Assembly: GCA_035651955.1 (NCBI GenBank)
Contig: DASRES010000086.1
Span: forward strand, 62,001-126,000
Source of the DNA: Acidimicrobiia bacterium
GTDB lineage: Bacteria; Actinomycetota; Acidimicrobiia; IMCC26256; JAMXLJ01
DNA: 64,000 bases
Reading direction: 5' to 3'
Position 1 is the first letter of the stretch, and each line of letters opens with the position of its first letter. Under the pieces are notes generated by a model, which saw only the letters and a program-made list of their open reading frames with translations, ran no database searches and had not been told where the DNA came from. The position numbers and the translations under genes are program-made. This document shows, piece by piece, positions 53,410 through 62,613 of the stretch.

Positions 53410-54741
53410 ATGCAGCAGCCGTCGAGCACGATGCCCGCGCCCGAACCGGTCTCGACCCTGCCCACACCGACACCACCCCGCACGACCGGACCGATCGAAC
53501 GCGGCCTGCTCTACTTCGTGCTCGCCGCGGTGATCGTCGCGATCTGCGCGTACAAGTCGATGTCGGTCCGCGACATCACACGCGCGCCGGCATGGGTGAT
53601 CTACAGCCTCGTCGTGCTCGTCTACATCCTGTCCCGGTTCGTCCTCGGCGCGATGTACCACCCAAAGCTGCCACGGGGGATGGGCGACGCCGACCTGCCC
53701 GTGATGGCGATCGTCGTCCCGGCGTACAACGAAGAGCGCGACATCCAGGCGACGCTGCATGCCTGCGTGTCGGTGGACTACCCGGCCGACAAGCTGCGTG
53801 TCGTCGTCGTCGACGACTGCTCGACCGACGGGACGCTGCGCGCGATCCGCGAGTTCGAGCGTGGGCACCCGGAGCTCGTCGTCCTCCCGCAGGCCGTCAA
53901 CCAAGGCAAGCGTGCGGCCATGGCCGTCGGCGTGCGGTGGGCGCGCGACGCGGACGTGTTCGTGTTCATCGACTCCGACTCGCAGATCGAGCCGTCCGCG
54001 CTGCGCAAGCTGGCTCGCTACTTCGCCGATCCGCGCGTCGGCGCCGTGGCCGGCCACACGGACGTCGCGAACCGCGACGTGAACTTCCTGACCCGGATGC
54101 AGGCCGTCCGCTACTACGTCGCGTTCCGCGTCTACAAGTCCGCCGAGGCGCTGTTCTCGTCGGTGACGTGCTGCTCGGGCTGCTTCTCGGGGTACCGGCG
54201 CGAGGCCGTCGACCGCGTCCTCGACAAGTGGCTGAACCAGACGTTCCTGGGCGAGCCCAGCACCTACGGCGACGACCGCAGCCTGACCAACTTCCTGCTC
54301 CGCGACTGGCGCGTCCTCTACGCGCCGGACGCGCACGCGTACACGGTCGTCCCCGAGACGATGAAGAAGTTCCTGCGCCAGCAGATGCGGTGGAAGAAGA
54401 GCTGGATCCGCGAGTCGATCCGGGCGTGCACGTTCATGTGGCGCAAGCACCCGATCGTGTCGTCGTCGTTCTACCTCGGGATCTTCCTCCCGCTGATCGC
54501 GCCGCAGATCGTGTTGAAGTCGCTCGTGTTCGACCCGTACGTGCAGGGGACGCTGCCGTACTGGTACGTCGGCGGCATCCTCGCGATGGCCCTGCTCTAC
54601 GGGCTCTACTACCGCGTCTACCGGCGTGAACGGCTCTGGTACCACGGCGTGCTGTTCGCGTTGTTCTACACCGCCGTGCTCGTGTGGCAGTTCCCGCTCG
54701 CGCTCGCCACGATGCGCGACTCGAAGTGGGGGACGAGGTGA
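53410..54741 (+). CDS. Family 2 processive glycosyltransferase (hyaluronan/poly-GlcNAc synthase-like)
   Basis: Membrane glycosyltransferase of 443 residues: two N-terminal helices, a cytoplasmic GT2 domain (MAIVVPAYNEERDIQATL, VVVVDDCSTDGTLRAI, DVFVFIDSDSQ with DxD about 187-189, GDDRSLTNFLL and the QxxRW motif QQMRWKKSW about 324-328) and three or four C-terminal helices. This is the pattern of synthases that polymerise and export a beta-linked glycan. ATG 53410 with AGAGGGGAAG upstream. The deacetylase that follows suggests a poly-N-acetylglucosamine-like product. The 191-bp gap before it (53219-53409) shows no gene. Confidence 0.88.
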   Translation: MQQPSSTMPAPEPVSTLPTPTPPRTTGPIERGLLYFVLAAVIVAICAYKSMSVRDITRAPAWVIYSLVVLVYILSRFVLGAMYHPKLPRGMGDADLPVMAIVVPAYNEERDIQATLHACVSVDYPADKLRVVVVDDCSTDGTLRAIREFERGHPELVVLPQAVNQGKRAAMAVGVRWARDADVFVFIDSDSQIEPSALRKLARYFADPRVGAVAGHTDVANRDVNFLTRMQAVRYYVAFRVYKSAEALFSSVTCCSGCFSGYRREAVDRVLDKWLNQTFLGEPSTYGDDRSLTNFLLRDWRVLYAPDAHAYTVVPETMKKFLRQQMRWKKSWIRESIRACTFMWRKHPIVSSSFYLGIFLPLIAPQIVLKSLVFDPYVQGTLPYWYVGGILAMALLYGLYYRVYRRERLWYHGVLFALFYTAVLVWQFPLALATMRDSKWGTR

Positions 54742-54871
54742 GCGAGCGAGCCGGGAGTCGAGCGGGAGCGGGACCGTGCCAACGGTCGCGCTCGCTGCGG
54801 GCCGGGATACCCGGCGGGCGGACACTCGCCGCTCCGACGCGGCCCGGCCCGCAGGGCCAAGAGCGGGAAGC
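54739..54871 (+). repeat. Family B-like repeat, long copy, with two hairpins
   Basis: Begins TGAGCGAGCGAGCC at the stop codon of the GT2 gene and ends GAGCGGGAAGC before the next ATG. It contains GACCGT-GCCA-ACGGTC and GCCGGG-ATA-CCCGGC hairpins. It resembles the copies at 30508 and 44853 mainly at its ends. It fills the 130-bp gap between two genes that look cotranscribed. Confidence 0.5.
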
Positions 54872-56479
54872 ATGAGCACGCGGGCCGTCGGCGGGATCAG
54901 CGGTGCGGTTCCCGTCCGCACGGAACGCCGGCGCGCCGCCGTGCGGGCGCGCGGCAAGCGCTTCAAGACGTGGCACAAGGTCGCGCTCGCGCTGTTCGCC
55001 GCGGGGTACGTGATCGTGCCGACGATCGTGCAGGCCGCGCACACGCACGCACCACGCTCGGCCGACCAACAGGTCGCCGCGCAGTATTCCGTTCCGATCC
55101 CGCACGTGCGGGACGACCTCGTCGCGCGGTTGAAGGCGCTTCCCGTCGACACGACGGGGACGGGGCCGCCGATCATCATGACGTACCACAACGTCACCGA
55201 CGATCCGTCCAGCCCGTACTCCGTGAAGCCGGAGCAGTTCGCGGCGCAGATGGCGCTCCTCGACGCCGCGGGGTACACGACGATCACCGCGAGCGACCTC
55301 GATCGCTGGCTCGCGGGCGGCAAGCTGCCGCCGCACTCGGTGCTGCTCACGTTCGACGACGGCATCCTCGGCGTGTGGCAGTACGCCGACAAGATCCTCG
55401 CGCAGCACCACCAACACGCGATCGCGTTCGTCATCACCGGGAACGTCGGGACGAAGGCGTCGTACTACATGACGTGGCCGGAGCTCGAGCGCTTGCAACG
55501 TTCCGGTCGGTGGGACCTCGAGTCGCACACCTCGAAGGGTCACCACTACATCACCGTCGACGCGCAACGGCACCAGGGTCCGTTCATGAACAACCTGCAG
55601 TACCTCGCCGCGGAGCGCCGGGTGGAGACGTTGCCCGAGTACACGAACCGGATCACCGCGGACCTCATGCGCTCGCAACGCGACCTGCGCGCGCACGGCG
55701 CGGACCCCGTGTTCTTCGCGTACCCGTTCTCGGCGAACTCGTCGTCACCGGCGGTCTCCGCCGCGCTCGCCAAGACGGTCTCGCAGCTCTTCCGCGGCGC
55801 GATGCTCGACGAGGACGGCTCGGCGATCACGACGCCGGCCGACACCGCGGCGGGCAACCTCCGTCGCGTCGACGTCCTGTGGCGCACCTCGCTCGACGAC
55901 TACGTCGCGCACATCGAGAGCTCGACGCTGCTCCCGCCCGCGTCGGTACCGCAGCCGTTCACCCGCCCCGACCTCTGGACGACGGCGTCGGGCAAGCCGT
56001 ACACGCCCGCGCTCGTCGGCGACGAGCTCGCGGTCGACCCCGCGCAGATCGCCTCCGGAAGCAACTGGGTCGGGCTGCAGTTCGCCGCCGACCGGACCGC
56101 GTTCTGGCGTGAGTTCACGATCGCGGCGACGCTCGGCGGATTCCAGGGCAAGGGTGACGGCACGACGACCGGCCTGCGCGTGTTCTCGGGGTCGTCCGCA
56201 CCGGTGCAGGTCTCGCTCGGGTGGGGGTCGCTCCAGGTCCGCCAGGGCACGTACCCGCACGACACGGTGCTCGCGGACGACCGACTGCCACCCGCCGCGG
56301 CGTACGACGTCGTCGTGAGCGTCCACGCCAACGTGCTCGAGGTCGACGTCGACGGCCACCCGATGGCGCGCCTGCCGATGGATCCCCGTGTCGCGGTGGG
56401 CGGGTTCGAGCTGACCGGCCAGCGCGCGCACGCGACGAGCCCTGTCCCGGTCGTGTCGAAGCTGGCGGTGCGGCCGTGA
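54872..56479 (+). CDS. Polysaccharide deacetylase-family protein (PgaB-like)
   Basis: Secreted or membrane-anchored CE4 protein of 535 residues. One N-terminal helix (KVALALFAAGYVIVPTIVQAA), then a NodB-type domain: IIMTYHNVTDDPSSPYSV, LLTFDDGILGVWQYADKIL (metal Asp), LESHTSKGHHYITV (His-x4-His region) and FFAYPFSANS. The last 170 residues form a beta-rich domain. Deacetylation of the glycan made by the upstream GT2 is the likely role. ATG 54872 chosen after GCGGGAAG. Confidence 0.85.
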   Translation: MSTRAVGGISGAVPVRTERRRAAVRARGKRFKTWHKVALALFAAGYVIVPTIVQAAHTHAPRSADQQVAAQYSVPIPHVRDDLVARLKALPVDTTGTGPPIIMTYHNVTDDPSSPYSVKPEQFAAQMALLDAAGYTTITASDLDRWLAGGKLPPHSVLLTFDDGILGVWQYADKILAQHHQHAIAFVITGNVGTKASYYMTWPELERLQRSGRWDLESHTSKGHHYITVDAQRHQGPFMNNLQYLAAERRVETLPEYTNRITADLMRSQRDLRAHGADPVFFAYPFSANSSSPAVSAALAKTVSQLFRGAMLDEDGSAITTPADTAAGNLRRVDVLWRTSLDDYVAHIESSTLLPPASVPQPFTRPDLWTTASGKPYTPALVGDELAVDPAQIASGSNWVGLQFAADRTAFWREFTIAATLGGFQGKGDGTTTGLRVFSGSSAPVQVSLGWGSLQVRQGTYPHDTVLADDRLPPAAAYDVVVSVHANVLEVDVDGHPMARLPMDPRVAVGGFELTGQRAHATSPVPVVSKLAVRP

Positions 56480-57912
56480 GCCGCGACCGCGATCTCCTCC
56501 CCACGCGTGTCCGCGCGGGGGAGCGGGTGGGCGTGACGACGCGGGGCACGGTCGCGCGGCTCGTCGTCGTGTTCGTGCTGGTGCTCGCGGCGACGTCCGT
56601 CGTCGTGCTCGACGCGTTCGCGTCGTCCTCACCATCCGGTCACACGTTGTACGTGCGCGCGGCCGCGTGCTCGGACGCGAGGTCGGGCGACCAGGCGCGC
56701 TCGCCGTCGACCCCGGTGTGCACGATCACCGCGGCCGCGCGGCTCGCGAACCCGGGGGACACGATCGCGGTCGCCGCGGGGACCTACCCCGCGTTCCGCG
56801 TCGACCGGTCCGGCAGCCCCGGGCACCCGATCGCCGTCGTCGCGCAGGGGCCCGTCGTCGTGGACGCGCGCGGTGGCGCGACCGCGCTCAAGCTCATGAA
56901 CGTGCACGACGTCACCGTGACGGGCGTCGCGTTCGTCGGCGCGTCGCGGGAAGACGTGTGGCTCCAGAGTTGCGGCTCCGTCGTGCTCGAGCGCGTCGCC
57001 GTGCAAGGCAGTGCGGGCGCGGGCATCGAGCTCGACCGCTGCGACGGTGTGACCGTCGACCGCTCCTCGATCGCCGGGAACCAGTCGGCCGGGATCCAGG
57101 AGCTGCGTGACGTCACCGGCGCTCGCTACACGAGCGACACCGTCACCGACAACGGGCACGGTCCGGCCCGCTACAACGGTGACGGGATCCAGCTCGCGGG
57201 CCGCGACAGCCTCGTGTCCGGCTCGACCATCCTGCGCAACGGCAGCGACCCCGTGTTCGAGCACGGCATCTACGCGTCGTCGCTCGCGACGGGGTACACG
57301 ATCGTCGGCAACCAGATCCAGCAGAGCTCGGGTGCGGACGTGAAGGCCGCGGGTTCCGGGCGGGTGTCCGGGAACGTGCTCGGCTCGGCGACGCTCGGGA
57401 TCTACGTCGCCGACAACGGCGCGGGCCAGGTCGTCGTCGACCACAACGTCGTCACGGGCCACTTCGCGCACGGTGTGCTCCTCGCCGGCGGCGCGCACGC
57501 GACGCTCGCGAACAACACCGTCGCGAACGCGGGTGGCGCGGTGGTGCAGCCGACGGACGTCCTCGTCGCGGCCGGCAGCAGCGCGCGGGTGCTCGACAAC
57601 CTCCTCGTCGTGTCGGGTGCCGGTGAGCGCCCGCTCAGCATCTCGGGCGTCGGCGCGCAACAGGTGCGCGCGAGGCTCGTGTCCGACGGGAACTGGCTCG
57701 CGACGCCGGACCCGCGCGTCGCCGTCGGCCTCAACGGCTACTCCGTGCCGCTCGCGTGGTGGCAGGCCGCGTCGGGCATGGACCGCGCCAGCCTCGTCAC
57801 CACCCCGCCCGTGCTCGGCGCGGACGGGAGCGTGCTGTCGGCCGACGACGGACGCGGACGTGGCGTCAGCTGGGACGGCCGGCCGAGCAGCGGCATCGGC
57901 GCGCACGGGTAA
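56476..57912 (+). CDS. Right-handed parallel beta-helix protein (pectate-lyase-like)
   Basis: Secreted protein of 478 residues with one N-terminal hydrophobic segment (LVVVFVLVLAATSVVVLDAFA). Repeated turns such as GDTIAVAAGTYPAF, DVTVTGVAFVGAS, GVTVDRSSIAGNQSAGI, GNVLGSATLGIYVADN and HNVVTGHFAHGVLLAGG give the coil spacing of a beta-helix, as in polysaccharide lyases and epimerases. No catalytic site could be assigned. GTG 56476 overlaps the deacetylase stop by 4 nt. Confidence 0.8.
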   Translation: MSRDRDLLPTRVRAGERVGVTTRGTVARLVVVFVLVLAATSVVVLDAFASSSPSGHTLYVRAAACSDARSGDQARSPSTPVCTITAAARLANPGDTIAVAAGTYPAFRVDRSGSPGHPIAVVAQGPVVVDARGGATALKLMNVHDVTVTGVAFVGASREDVWLQSCGSVVLERVAVQGSAGAGIELDRCDGVTVDRSSIAGNQSAGIQELRDVTGARYTSDTVTDNGHGPARYNGDGIQLAGRDSLVSGSTILRNGSDPVFEHGIYASSLATGYTIVGNQIQQSSGADVKAAGSGRVSGNVLGSATLGIYVADNGAGQVVVDHNVVTGHFAHGVLLAGGAHATLANNTVANAGGAVVQPTDVLVAAGSSARVLDNLLVVSGAGERPLSISGVGAQQVRARLVSDGNWLATPDPRVAVGLNGYSVPLAWWQAASGMDRASLVTTPPVLGADGSVLSADDGRGRGVSWDGRPSSGIGAHG

Positions 57913-57927
57913 GCGGGTCGGGGAGTC

Positions 57928-58770
57928 GTGCGGACGTCGTTGGTCACCGGCGCGCTCGCGATCGCGGTCGCGGTCGCGGGAGTCGCGGTCCTGATCGTGT
58001 CGCCGTGGTCGTCGTCGTCCGCGCGTGACGGGCACGGCGCGCGGACGGTCGTGCACGCGGCCGCCGCGTCGCCGGCACCGGGCCAGGTGCTGTTCCGCGA
58101 CGACTTCGACCGCGCCGACGGGCTCGTCACCAACGAGTTCGCGTACTGGAACCCGAGCCGGGCCGACGCGGTGCGCTCACCCGACTGGGAGCTCACGAGC
58201 GGGTCGCTGTTCACGCGTGCCGGCGCGGGTTGGACGGGCGCTCCCGACGACGTCGCGCCGAACGCGACGTCGTCGAACGGCAACGACTCGGCCGTCTTCC
58301 GGCTCACGACCACGAACCCCGGCTTCGGGAACGTCGCCGTCGACCTCGACCTGCGGCTCGACCGGTTCGTCACGACGAAGCGGACGCCCGCCGTCGCCTG
58401 GGACGGTGTGCACGTGTTCCTGCACTACCAGAGCGAGTACTCGCTCTACTACGCGTCGATCGACCGTCGCGACGGCACGGTCGCGATCAAGAAGAAGGTC
58501 CCCGGCGGCCCCAGCAACGACGGCACGTACTACCAGCTCGCGACAGGTCGCCACGCCGTGCCGCTCGGCGCGTGGGAGCACGTGCGGGCGACGGTCGCGA
58601 CGGGCGCCGACGGCTCGGTCACGATCGAGCTGTTCGGGAACGGCACGTTGCTCGCCCGGGCCGTCGACCGCGGGACGGGCGGGCCCCCGATCACGCGCCC
58701 CGGCAAGGTCGGGCTGCGGGGTGACAACGCGGACTTCTCGTTCGACCGCTTCACCGTGACGGCGCTGTGA
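57928..58770 (+). CDS. Secreted LamG/concanavalin-like jelly-roll protein
   Basis: Protein of 280 residues: N-terminal hydrophobic segment (LVTGALAIAVAVAGVAVLIV), then a beta-sandwich beginning VLFRDDFDRADGLVTNEF and ending GKVGLRGDNADFSFDRFTVT, the usual boundaries of LamG- or DUF1080-like carbohydrate-binding/hydrolase domains. It probably binds or trims the polysaccharide made by this cassette. GTG 57928 follows the beta-helix gene after 15 bp. Confidence 0.75.
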   Translation: MRTSLVTGALAIAVAVAGVAVLIVSPWSSSSARDGHGARTVVHAAAASPAPGQVLFRDDFDRADGLVTNEFAYWNPSRADAVRSPDWELTSGSLFTRAGAGWTGAPDDVAPNATSSNGNDSAVFRLTTTNPGFGNVAVDLDLRLDRFVTTKRTPAVAWDGVHVFLHYQSEYSLYYASIDRRDGTVAIKKKVPGGPSNDGTYYQLATGRHAVPLGAWEHVRATVATGADGSVTIELFGNGTLLARAVDRGTGGPPITRPGKVGLRGDNADFSFDRFTVTAL

Positions 58771-58784
58771 GCGCCTGACCGGGC

Positions 58785-58813
58785 TCAAGCATCTGCACCG
58801 TTCGTGCCGATAC
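58785..58813 (+). promoter_or_regulatory. Candidate sigma28 (FliA/WhiG)-type promoter for the pilin-like operon
   Basis: TCAA (58785-58788), a 17-bp spacer, and GCCGATAC (58806-58813) match the FliA/SigD/WhiG pattern TCAA/TAAA...GCCGATAA, with one base change in the -10 and a spacer 1-2 bp longer than usual. It lies 38 bp before the first pilin-like gene. AGGAGG at 58831-58836 follows. Confidence 0.5.
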
Positions 58814-58850
58814 CTCCGGAGCAGGTCCTCAGGAGGGACGGCACATCCGC

Positions 58851-60215
58851 ATGGAGGGACGAGGGGATGCAGGACGCGGCGGCTCGGACCGCCGTCGGCG
58901 CGCGCCTGCATCCACGCGCGCCTGCATCCGGGGTGACCAGCAGGGTTTCACGCTGATCGAGCTCGTCGTCGCGATCTCGCTGTTCGCCATCATGAGCAGC
59001 GCGATCGTCGCGTCGATCAGCTCGGGTCTGAACCTGACCCGCAACAACCGCAACCGCGCGGTCGCCGCGAACCTCGCGTCGCAGCGGATGGACCAGCTGC
59101 GCGCGATGAGCTTCACGCAGCTCGAGGCGCAACTCGGGACGCAGGCGCCGCAGACGGTCGACGTCCCGAACCCCGGTGGCACGCCCTACACCGTGACGAC
59201 GACTGTCAACCCGGTCCCGGTCAACTCGACGAGCGACCCGTGCGACGCCAACGGAACGTCGACGAACGACCTCGTGTTCCGGGTCGACGTGTCGGTGACG
59301 TGGCCGTCGATGCACGGCGTCACGCCGGCCGACGCGCACACCGTCATCAGCCCGCCCGTGGGGCTGTACGACCAGACCGGGCTCGGGTTCCTCGGCGTGA
59401 AGGTGCTCGGCGCCGACGGCAAGGCCGTCTCCGGCGTGCCCGTCACCGTGACGCCGGCGGTCACGCCCGCGACGAACTCGACCGACACGAACGGGTGCGC
59501 GTTCTTCAGCGGCGCGGCCGCGGGTTCGTACGTCGTGTCGCTCGGCTCGGCCGGGTACGTCGACCGGCAGGGGAACCCGTCGCCGACGCAGACGGTCGGC
59601 GTCACCGCCAACACCATCACCCAGGTCGGGTTCGACTACGCGCAGGCCGCGACGCTGAACGTCACGCTGGCCGGCAACGGCGGTGCGACGGTCCCGTCGA
59701 ACGTCGCGGTGACGCTCGGCGACACGGACTTCCAGCCGAACGGGACGCACGCGTTCACGGGGTCCGGCACGACGAGGTCGATCGGCAACCTGTTCCCGAC
59801 GACGGCGGGGTACACGGCCTGGGCCGGCGACTGCGCGGATGCGGATCCCGAGGGGAGCTCGGCGAGCGGCCCGTACTGGCAGGGCGGTCAGCGAGGCGCG
59901 CCCGTCGCGGTGACACCGGGGCAGTCGGCCGCGACGACGATCACGCTCCCGTCCGTGTCGGTGAGCGTGCAGCAGGGTGGCGTCGCGCTGGCGGGCACGG
60001 ACGTCGTCGCGGTGCACGCGTCCGACACCGGGTGCCCGTCCGGTGAGAGCTACGACCTCGGCGCGACCGACTCGACCGGCACGGTGACGGCCGCGCTCCC
60101 GTACGGGACGTACGCGTTGCAGGTGACGGGGCACACCGTCTCGGGTCAGCCGACCGCGGTGCTCGACCCGACCGGCACGACGAGCACGCCGACCGTCGCG
60201 GTGTCGGTCCAGTGA
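58851..60215 (+). CDS. Type IV pilin-like protein with prepilin signal and long Ig-like/carboxypeptidase-regulatory C terminus
   Basis: Protein of 454 residues. The prepilin motif is GDQQGFTLIELVVAISLFAIM, with Gly at about residue 32, Phe at +1 and Glu at +5, so it should be cut and methylated by a PilD peptidase. The first 30 residues are a basic leader. The rest is Thr/Val/Gly-rich, with sections like GVKVLGADGKAVSGVPVTVTP and STDTNGCAFFSGAAAGSYVV that look like carboxypeptidase-regulatory-like repeats. AGGAGG is 14 nt before ATG 58851, which is long. Confidence 0.85.
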   Translation: MEGRGDAGRGGSDRRRRAPASTRACIRGDQQGFTLIELVVAISLFAIMSSAIVASISSGLNLTRNNRNRAVAANLASQRMDQLRAMSFTQLEAQLGTQAPQTVDVPNPGGTPYTVTTTVNPVPVNSTSDPCDANGTSTNDLVFRVDVSVTWPSMHGVTPADAHTVISPPVGLYDQTGLGFLGVKVLGADGKAVSGVPVTVTPAVTPATNSTDTNGCAFFSGAAAGSYVVSLGSAGYVDRQGNPSPTQTVGVTANTITQVGFDYAQAATLNVTLAGNGGATVPSNVAVTLGDTDFQPNGTHAFTGSGTTRSIGNLFPTTAGYTAWAGDCADADPEGSSASGPYWQGGQRGAPVAVTPGQSAATTITLPSVSVSVQQGGVALAGTDVVAVHASDTGCPSGESYDLGATDSTGTVTAALPYGTYALQVTGHTVSGQPTAVLDPTGTTSTPTVAVSVQ

Positions 60216-60901
60216 TCGCGCGAGCGCGTACGCGGTTCTGGGCGCGCTCCGAGCGGGGCACCGCGAGCATGTTCGAGATCGTCGCGACGCTCGCCATCAT
60301 GAGCATCGTCGTGATGGTCGTGTACCAGGGCGTCGACTCGATGACGGCCTCGGTCGCGGGCGCGGAGAACCGCCTCGTCAACCTGGACGAGGCGCGCACG
60401 CTGATGGACACGACGACGAAGGACCTCCGCACCGCGACCCGCCTGCAGGCCGGGACGTCGGCGTTCGCGATCGCAAACGACACCGAGGTCGAGTTCTACG
60501 CCAACCTCAACCTGTCGTCGTCGAACGGCTACGCGCCCGTCCGCGTGCACATCTACGTCGACAGCAACAACCAGCTCATCGAGGAGGTCAAGCAGCCCGA
60601 CGCGGCCTCGATCGCGAACGCGCCGAACTACACGTACGACTCGGACCCGACGAACAAGCCGCACGTCCGCTACGTCGGCCGGTACGTCGCGAACCCGTCC
60701 GGCTCGCCGATCTTCACCTACCTCGACCAGAACGGGAACCCCATCACGCCGACGCCGCTGACGGGCACCGCGCTGCTCGGGATCAACTCCGTCTCGATCG
60801 ACCTCATGATCCGCAAGACGCCGACGGGCGGCATCGGCTACACGACGCTGCAGAGCACCGTCCGGATGCCGAACATGGACTTCACCCAGGTGTCGTCGTG
60901 A
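60212..60901 (+). CDS. PulJ/PilW-like minor pseudopilin
   Basis: Protein of 229 residues with an N-terminal hydrophobic helix preceded by ERGTASMFEIVATLAIMSIVVMVVY. This keeps the acidic Glu in the helix but lacks the canonical G-F-T-L-I-E: the nearest Gly is 6 rather than 5 residues before the Glu. ARTLMDTTTKDLRTATRLQ is typical of PulJ-like proteins. GTG 60212 overlaps the upstream gene by 4 nt. Confidence 0.78.
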   Translation: MIARARTRFWARSERGTASMFEIVATLAIMSIVVMVVYQGVDSMTASVAGAENRLVNLDEARTLMDTTTKDLRTATRLQAGTSAFAIANDTEVEFYANLNLSSSNGYAPVRVHIYVDSNNQLIEEVKQPDAASIANAPNYTYDSDPTNKPHVRYVGRYVANPSGSPIFTYLDQNGNPITPTPLTGTALLGINSVSIDLMIRKTPTGGIGYTTLQSTVRMPNMDFTQVSS

Positions 60902-62613
60902 CGCGGGCGCGGATCACCCGTGCCGCGCACGGCGAGGACGGCTTCGCGGTCATGACCGTGCTGCTCGCGACGCTCGCGCTGATGCTCCTCGCCACGGCCG
61001 CGATCGGCTACGGCATCGGCTCGCAGGACATCTCGCGTCACGACGAGAACTGGAACGGCGCGCTCGCGGCGGCGAACGCGGGTGTCGACGACTTCGTGTT
61101 CCGGCTCAACCAGAACAGCAACTACTACACGACGGTCCCACAGGTCCCGAACGCGACCGCGTGGACGAACCTGGCCGGCGGTTCGACGGGTACGGCGTCG
61201 AACGCGCAGTTCCGCTACTCGATCCTCGACCCGAACGAGCTCGCCAAGAAGGGCACGGTCACCGTGCTGTCGTCCGGGAAGGTCGGCAACGCGGTGCGGA
61301 CGGTCCAGGCGACGCTGCGCCGCCGCAGCTTCATCGACTACCTGTACTTCACCGACTACGAGACCATGGACCCGTCGCTCTACACGGGCAACCCGTTCAC
61401 GCCGTCGCAGGCGCAGACGCAGTGCGCGCACCACTACTACGACGGGCGCAACTCGAACTGCGTCGAGATCAGCTTCGGTCCGTTCGACGTCATCAACGGC
61501 CCGCTGCACTCGAATGACGCGTACCTCGTGTGCAACGGCGCGAAGTTCCTCGGCGCGACGTCCACGAGCTGGCTCGGGCCGAACGGGAACAAGACCGGGA
61601 AGCTGTACCGCCCGAACAGCTGCGGCTCCGGCTCGCCGGTGTTCGCGCAGCCGGGTGATCCGCACTACGCGGACCCGCTGACGATGCCCCCGAGCAACAC
61701 GTCGATCAAGAACGAGACGCGCGCCTACGACGGCGTCACTGGCGGTGCGTGCCTGTACACCGGTCCGACCGCGATCACGTTCAACTCGAACGGCACGATG
61801 ACGGTCGACTCGCCGTTCTCGAAGAACACCGCGAACGGCTGTCCCGTCAACACCTGGAACGGCACCGGGTCCCGGCCGGCGCCGGTGACGGGCTCGCTCC
61901 CGGTCGACGGCGTGATCTACGTGCAGAACGTGCCCGCGTCGTTGGGCGACGCGAACTACACGAACGGGTGCCCGTACAGCGTGCGGTTCAACAACAGCGG
62001 CAGCAACCCGCTGCGGAACCACCCACTCGGCTACCCGATCGCGAACGACGTCACGACGTACGGGTGCCGCAACGGCGACGCGTTCGTGCAGGGCACGGTG
62101 AAGGGTCAGGTCACGGTCGCGGCCGAGAACAACGTCGAGGTCGTCGGCAACCTCACCTACGCCGGTGGCCTGACCGGGAGCGACATCCTCGGTCTCGCTG
62201 CGAACAACTTCGTCGAGGTGTACCACCCCGTGAACAGCTCGGGGACGAACCTGTCGTCGAGCTTCCCGTCGTGCGGGTCGCCGACGTCGGGTCCGCACTG
62301 CGCGACGATCGACGCCGCGATGATCTCCGTGAACCACTCCGTGCGGGTGCAGAACTACAGCTCCGGGTCGGGACTCGGCACGCTGACGATCAACGGCGCG
62401 TTCGCGCAACGCTTCCGCGGGATCGTCGGCACGTTCAACGGGTCGCAGCTGGTGACCGGGTACGCGAAGAACTACGTGTACGACCAACGCCTCAAGTACC
62501 TGAGCCCGCCCAAGTTCATCGACCCGGTCGCGGCCGCGTGGCAAGACGTCGTCTGGGCGGAGCAGAAGCCGGCGTGGTGCGGCGCGCCTGCGTACAACAC
62601 CGTCTGCAGCTGA
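60898..62613 (+). CDS. PilX-like pilus assembly protein
   Basis: Protein of 571 residues. GEDGFAVMTVLLATLALMLLATAAIGYG is the PilX-type N terminus (Gly-Phe-Ala, without Glu at +5). ALAAANAGVDDFVFRLNQN follows, the usual A-x-A-GvdD segment. The remainder is a large extracellular Asn/Gly/Ser-rich domain with paired Cys residues, suggesting disulfide bonds or adhesin-like function. GTG 60898 overlaps the previous gene by 4 nt. It completes a three-gene operon without assembly ATPases in the window. Confidence 0.8.
   Translation: MTRARITRAAHGEDGFAVMTVLLATLALMLLATAAIGYGIGSQDISRHDENWNGALAAANAGVDDFVFRLNQNSNYYTTVPQVPNATAWTNLAGGSTGTASNAQFRYSILDPNELAKKGTVTVLSSGKVGNAVRTVQATLRRRSFIDYLYFTDYETMDPSLYTGNPFTPSQAQTQCAHHYYDGRNSNCVEISFGPFDVINGPLHSNDAYLVCNGAKFLGATSTSWLGPNGNKTGKLYRPNSCGSGSPVFAQPGDPHYADPLTMPPSNTSIKNETRAYDGVTGGACLYTGPTAITFNSNGTMTVDSPFSKNTANGCPVNTWNGTGSRPAPVTGSLPVDGVIYVQNVPASLGDANYTNGCPYSVRFNNSGSNPLRNHPLGYPIANDVTTYGCRNGDAFVQGTVKGQVTVAAENNVEVVGNLTYAGGLTGSDILGLAANNFVEVYHPVNSSGTNLSSSFPSCGSPTSGPHCATIDAAMISVNHSVRVQNYSSGSGLGTLTINGAFAQRFRGIVGTFNGSQLVTGYAKNYVYDQRLKYLSPPKFIDPVAAAWQDVVWAEQKPAWCGAPAYNTVCS

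Follow-up and report, generated by a model that had tools for sequence, protein, structure and literature searches.

A probable WhiG promoter upstream of a minor-pilin operon in an Acidimicrobiia bacterium

Within the 64,000 nucleotides (nt) of Acidimicrobiia DNA analysed here—the window, G000:C86:62001-126000, from a genome (G000) of 4.1 Mb in 92 contigs—lies an operon of three genes for pilin-like proteins, preceded at window positions 58785-58813 by a short element of the kind recognised by sigma28-family factors. Judged from its sequence, this element is very likely a promoter read by the sigma factor WhiG, and the minor-pilin operon that it would drive very likely belongs to a WhiG regulon that also takes in other type IV pilus units, some secreted proteins and sensors.

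The minor-pilin operon and its probable promoter

The three genes stand in a row, each overlapping its neighbour by 4 nt, with hisS downstream from about 62664 (Table 1). An earlier note on this DNA, made from the sequence alone, had called all three pseudopilin-like, which stands for gene 1 on the strength of prepilin signal models and for genes 2 and 3 by fold only. Gene 1 has a class III signal peptide with a prepilin N-methylation signal (PF07963, 8.4e-8; TIGR02532, 8.9e-7), and its N-terminal part resembles GspI/PilV at scores below the cut-offs of those models. Genes 2 and 3 gave no family match in Pfam or NCBIfam at E 0.01, and no signal model matched either protein. AlphaFold models of the two, built on alignments of 17 and 13 sequences respectively, consist of one long helix at the N-terminus and a beta-rich body, with mean pLDDT (predicted local distance difference test) scores of 78 and 65. 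The best solved fold match for gene 2 is the minor pseudopilin XcpW/GspJ (5bw0, E 9.5e-5) and that for gene 3 is the Thermus pilin ComZ (6qvi, E 1e-6, template-modelling (TM) score about 0.25). Taken together, these results indicate that the operon probably encodes a set of pilus minor subunits, namely tip and priming pilins.

ComZ, a pilus-tip pilin, is like the gene 3 protein in being large and in joining a long N-terminal helix to a body rich in beta structure (PMC6561018, available part; 6qvi). A profile of gene 3 found no match among PDB sequences at E 1; a link at the sequence level was therefore rejected and the likeness is one of fold. DNA binding at the pilus tip is conceivable, and the fold likeness of gene 3 may serve as a lead towards it.

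Among 25 named loci, tblastn at E 1e-4 detected gene 2 in 17, gene 3 in 24 and hisS in 12; several of these loci are cut by contig ends, and some come from distant Microbacteriaceae and Egibacteraceae. The closest named relatives of gene 1 are metagenome-assembled genomes whose labels read Acidimicrobiia or the broader Actinomycetes or Actinomycetota.

The motif described in the earlier note, TCAA-N17-GCCGATAC, is present exactly as given, with the TCAA at 58785-58788; the gap between its end and the ATG of gene 1 is 37 nt and not 38. Its -10 core, GCCGAT, lies at a near-fixed distance from the -35 element, as expected of sigma28 promoters. With zero mismatches, the full pattern matches once in the window. 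When up to three mismatches are allowed there are 38 matches in the window against 34.6 expected, and as this is close to chance the near-matches carry no meaning. Genome-wide, TMAA-N14-18-GCCGATAM has seven matches against none for the reversed pattern, although the latter is an unfair control for composition. The expected leader of the operon is about 30 nt, and no riboswitch of the c-di-GMP-I class (for cyclic di-GMP, c-di-GMP) was found at gathering score in the locus that holds it (L022; covariance model).

The genes directly upstream of the operon on the same strand (54626-58770) encode a polysaccharide deacetylase resembling PgaB, a beta-helix protein and one further product whose N-terminus holds a hydrophobic stretch; this is perhaps an exopolysaccharide or surface locus.

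Table 1. Features of the minor-pilin operon, with the flagellar promoters used for comparison
Feature	Position	Strand	Basis
-35 element TCAAG, WhiG-type promoter	58785..58789	+	sequence; conserved upstream of gene-1 homologues
-10 element GCCGATAC, core GCCGAT	58806..58813	+	sequence; conserved upstream of gene-1 homologues
Expected transcription start, 5-9 nt past -10	58818..58822	+	inferred
AGGAGG, likely ribosome binding site of gene 1	58831..58836	+	sequence
Gene 1, minor pilin with class III signal (QQGFTLIELVVAIS)	58851..60215	+	family models
Gene 2, minor pilin, GspJ/PilW-like by fold	60212..60901	+	structure model
Gene 3, large pilin-like protein, ComZ-like by fold, modest model confidence	60898..62613	+	structure model
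Flagellar promoters CTTCA-N15-17-NCCGAT, flgN and fliC	L020:8894-8921 (+), L020:6888-6915 (-)	+, -	
Same CTTCA-N15-17-NCCGAT flagellar promoter form	also L302, L303, L304, L305		

Placement of the motif in the genome

For placement, for the surroundings of the sigma factor genes, for the targets behind riboswitches and for the comparison of targets, genes were called with a codon-score script (the flagellar promoter scan also used a longest-ORF (open reading frame) version) and not with a published caller. TCAAG-N15/16-NCCGAT occurs 21 times in the G000 genome, 19 times outside predicted genes and twice inside them. In 17 of the intergenic cases a predicted start on that strand follows after 6-183 nt; the other two intergenic matches lie near contig ends. 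Across 250 sampled letter permutations of the motif, 12% of matches were intergenic, which gives a binomial P of 7e-16 for the real motif; only this intergenic share was used, since the sequence set holds loci fetched because of the motif.

The earlier note had suggested scanning for the motif before other pilus genes, and several pil operons proved to carry it: besides the minor pilins, it precedes pilA and DUF4388-pilB-pilT-pilC, with a TCAAC form before a 36-residue ORF and pilD. The motif is also found before genes for three CAP-domain secreted proteins, for HDOD, PIN-domain, beta-helix and DUF4234 proteins, for a GAF protein, for a GAF histidine kinase and the response regulator behind it, for an amidase and for proteins without a Pfam match. 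Genes for diguanylate cyclases or phosphodiesterases (GGDEF/EAL) were absent from the G000 targets scanned, the GGDEF gene at L028:4185-4817 being on the opposite strand. The CAP genes of G000 (L162, L168 and L170) are targets that lack a riboswitch. At the ends of contigs C21 and C27, L161:158-186 and L164:179-207 hold near-identical TCAAG-N16-CCCGATAC sites, possibly copies of a repeat at which the assembly broke.

Conservation in relatives

We collected 51 regions upstream of gene-1 homologues, 26 from a genome search and 25 named, with some species in both sets and weak homologues included. The strict motif is present in 19 of the 51 (0.02 expected) and the relaxed form T[CAT]AAG-N14-17-[GAT]CCGAT in 26 (0.06 expected); dropping identical sites leaves 13 and 18, respectively. 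Between diverged genomes the spacers vary whilst both promoter elements are kept. The site in Acidimicrobiia bacterium Bin.002_Pasture (L097) and that of G001, a genome listed under the same genus, are identical.

Intergenic placement extends to relatives. In G014, which has a strong gene-1 orthologue (49%) carrying the site, 14 of 16 motif matches are intergenic (P 1.5e-11), and in G016 this is true of 7 of 20 (P 0.007); in both genomes the intergenic sites include those before a pilA-like gene and the gene-1 homologue. At E 1e-4 the target proteins shared by G000 and G014 are only pilA, gene 1, the PIN-domain protein and, weakly, a CAP protein, and no G016 target matched the other compared targets (G000, G014) at the same threshold, so that conservation could be seen for only a few single targets. 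Raw motif counts across relatives do not discriminate and were not used as support.

Sigma factors and a possible c-di-GMP link

That no sigma28-type factor might be encoded was the first objection foreseen in the earlier note. G000 encodes two that exceed the FliA_WhiG cut-off of 189.6 bits. The stronger (contig C9, 281.5 bits) is WhiG: the protein encoded at G000:C9:37375 matches Streptomyces venezuelae WhiG (6pfj_A) at E 2.3e-94, against E 1.3e-49 or weaker for FliA structures, and its gene lies near xerC-, rpsB-, tsf-, pyrH- and frr-like genes (named by eye). The second (C55, 197.8 bits) is FliA, set among flagellar genes (by eye), and a flagellin is confirmed in G000. Among the matches listed for 41 genomes, 38 genomes have one above 250 bits with the FliA_WhiG model and 13 have a second of 134-206 bits; flagellin is over cut-off in 11 genomes, all within those 13. 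G007 has a partial match of 193 bits at a contig edge. Two divergent sigma-70 family factors lie at L023:5229-8199, each beside a small anti-sigma-kinase-like protein (by eye).

In characterised relatives, WhiG is bound by the anti-sigma factor RsiG together with c-di-GMP (Schumacher et al. 2021; PMC8325347, available part). An rsiG gene is present at C55:52912-53445, its product matching S. venezuelae RsiG (named AmfC protein in the PDB) at E 1.7e-15 and PF22802 at 3e-28 in two stretches. The signature E(X)3S(X)2R(X)3[Q/H](X)3D is intact in both of its copies, as E-S-R-Q-D and E-S-R-H-D. RsiG was found in 36 of the 41 genomes, all 36 of which have WhiG; in G006 rsiG is interrupted by a stop. 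On contig C55 the flagellar sigma gene (25155) and rsiG (52912) are about 27 kb apart, and the two genes also share a contig in G009, G020, G027, G037 and G040.

A second connection to c-di-GMP is found in the pilA leader, where a WhiG-type promoter is followed directly by a c-di-GMP-I riboswitch (RF01051; 52.4 bits against a gathering threshold of 35), the only one found in G000 (L025:7109-7253; G000:C39:25108-25252). Across the 41 genomes, 24 riboswitch loci were collected from 13 genomes, one of them below gathering score, and 17 of the 24 have a WhiG-type element no more than 80 nt upstream (0.10 expected), its -10 ending 14-32 nt before the aptamer. These 17 tandems precede pilA-like genes (11), CAP-domain genes (5) and an unclear target in G006. 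The secreted CAP-domain proteins behind a tandem are those of L074, L086, L087, L090 and L093 (G015, G025, G031). The seven riboswitch loci lacking the element are the pilA of G018, one CAP gene, two GGDEF genes, one WxL-like gene and two others. A U-run terminator was not evident in the riboswitch leaders read by eye.

Clostridioides difficile likewise has c-di-GMP riboswitches upstream of pilin genes. Here, unlike in that species, the aptamer begins 14-32 nt past a WhiG-type -10, so that initiation too may depend on c-di-GMP, via RsiG. The motor is a further candidate: the MshEN domain of PilB scores 56.3 against a cut-off of 38 in the curated NCBIfam c-di-GMP model (PilT, at 37.9, is just below), whilst its second motif, read by eye, lacks the R and G that are conserved in the motif as published (PMC5013675, available part). 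With RsiG, the pilA riboswitch and PilB MshEN in place, c-di-GMP may act on one machine at initiation, in the leader and at the motor.

How the promoter may be read

We propose that RNA polymerase carrying WhiG would initiate at 58785-58813 and transcribe 58851-62613, supplying minor pilins for the pilus tip or for priming. The same regulon would include pilA, the small ORF with pilD, DUF4388-pilB-pilT-pilC, and some of the secreted proteins and sensors. The activity of WhiG would most likely be set by the twin-motif RsiG, which would hold WhiG when c-di-GMP is bound; we infer both this gate and its direction. On this analysis there is probably one pilus programme gated by c-di-GMP.

An alternative is that FliA reads the promoter and so couples pili to flagella. 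G000 has both FliA and flagellin, its flagellar promoters share the -10 core CCGAT, and one flagellin gene of G008 carries TCAAG-N14-TCCGATGA, which means that the separation of WhiG from FliA is not absolute. The promoter, WhiG and RsiG are, however, all present in G014 and G024, which have strong gene-1 orthologues, and in G016 and G032, which have weak homologues (E about 3e-5), and among the matches listed none of the four has a second FliA-like match above 130 bits, and in none does a flagellin reach its cut-off (one in G024 scores 21 bits). Since these relatives keep their sites, WhiG is the likely reader. The flagellar genes themselves point the same way: the flgN operons of G000, G001, G020, G037 and G040 carry CTTCA-N15-17-GCCGAT and not TCAAG, and the fliC promoter of G000 reads CTTCA-N15-TCCGATGA, although flgN departs from this form in G018 and G027. 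The region 4.2 helix also differs, being Q[IV]HTKA in 30 of 30 WhiG rows and QLRAEA in 9 of 11 FliA rows (QMRAEA or QMKAEA in the other two). We consider it very unlikely that FliA reads the site, and rejected it as the main reader on the relatives that keep the promoter and on the CTTCA -35 of the flagellar genes.

The site could also be a chance match, with the operon transcribed by the housekeeping sigma factor or by read-through from the genes upstream. Read-through is possible because only 14 nt separate the upstream stop (58770) from the motif, and versions with up to three mismatches are as common as chance. Against this, the site holds its position in diverged genomes, with spacers that vary between them, and nearly all matches in G000 lie outside genes; a chance match was rejected on these two grounds, and this alternative is very unlikely. 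Several observations nonetheless weigh against WhiG as the reader, in addition to the G008 flagellin gene. The -35 is TCAA and not the TAAA of the published flagellar consensus (G027 and G033 have TAAAG ahead of their pilA riboswitch); in G016, 13 of the 20 matches fall inside genes; and among the 12 loci whose gene-1 homologues are closest, which include G009 with just 63 nt of upstream sequence, G020 and G040 have only imperfect sites. Raw motif counts in the two genomes without a WhiG match (12 in G019, 17 in G029) are like the rest, as counts that say nothing of placement, and some permutations keeping one real element reached 4-5 intergenic matches, which are probably register shifts of the same sites. 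Finally, WhiG might read the promoter in this lineage without control by RsiG and c-di-GMP. The targets scanned in G000 include no GGDEF/EAL gene, unlike those of Rubrobacter, but both RsiG motifs are intact, RsiG is accompanied by WhiG in all 36 genomes that have it, and the riboswitch and the PilB c-di-GMP domain lie within the same regulon; we regard this version as unlikely.

Relation to known systems

The closest precedent is Rubrobacter, for which the available part of Schumacher et al. 2021 (PMC8325347, the source for the following comparisons) describes a type IV pilus cluster with WhiG-type promoters and mapped starts. Rubrobacter radiotolerans, the source of the (RsiG)2-(c-di-GMP)2-WhiG complex, resembles our case as a unicellular actinobacterium with RsiG, WhiG-type promoters in pilus genes and a GCCGAT -10. 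Its RsiG has one motif and works as a dimer, whereas here a single chain holds both motifs; the -35 searched for there was TAAA and here it is TCAAG; and 5 of its 12 WhiG promoters precede diguanylate cyclase or phosphodiesterase genes. No riboswitch was met in the available account of Rubrobacter, whereas one is present here in the pilA leader. WhiG and a twin-motif RsiG homologue are also common to this bacterium and the Streptomyces sporulation switch (PMC8325347; PDB 6pfj/6pfv), the output of which is sporulation genes and not, as is likely here, pili and secreted proteins. In Actinoplanes zoospores, FliA-family sigma factors serve flagella and type IV pili, so that pili are again under a flagellar-family factor; Actinoplanes is without RsiG, which is encoded here. 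Twin-motif RsiG was counted in 3 of 4 Acidimicrobiales, with no function given in the part available.

The earlier note had expected a distinct regulon. For G000 this is well supported, whilst the principle has already been published for Rubrobacter and mentioned for Actinoplanes; the regulon is a variant of the published WhiG-RsiG-c-di-GMP switch, in another lineage with a twin-motif RsiG, with a different -35 and with the promoter-riboswitch tandem. What the note observed is correct, and its interpretation well supported. In the titles and abstract openings searched, from which subscription journals are largely missing, we found neither a WhiG-pilus regulon in Acidimicrobiia nor such a tandem. 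The tandem, and a twin-motif RsiG lineage with a likely pilus output and a different -35, appear to be new.

Implications

A wider reading, which we put at slightly short of an even chance, is that in Acidimicrobiia c-di-GMP gates one pilus machine three times: at initiation through RsiG and WhiG, in the leaders of pilA and CAP genes through the riboswitch, and maybe at the motor through PilB MshEN. Pilus control would then be the ancestral task of twin-motif RsiG, and the two sigma28 factors of one cell would be separated through the -35 element, which is TCAAG for WhiG and CTTCA for FliA. If this is true, the duplication within RsiG predates the recruitment of the switch to sporulation. The tandem of promoter and riboswitch makes it possible to test whether the same ligand acts twice on one transcript and, if so, whether with equal or opposite sign. 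The conserved pilus regulon described here suggests that pili, and not spores, may be the older output of the switch.

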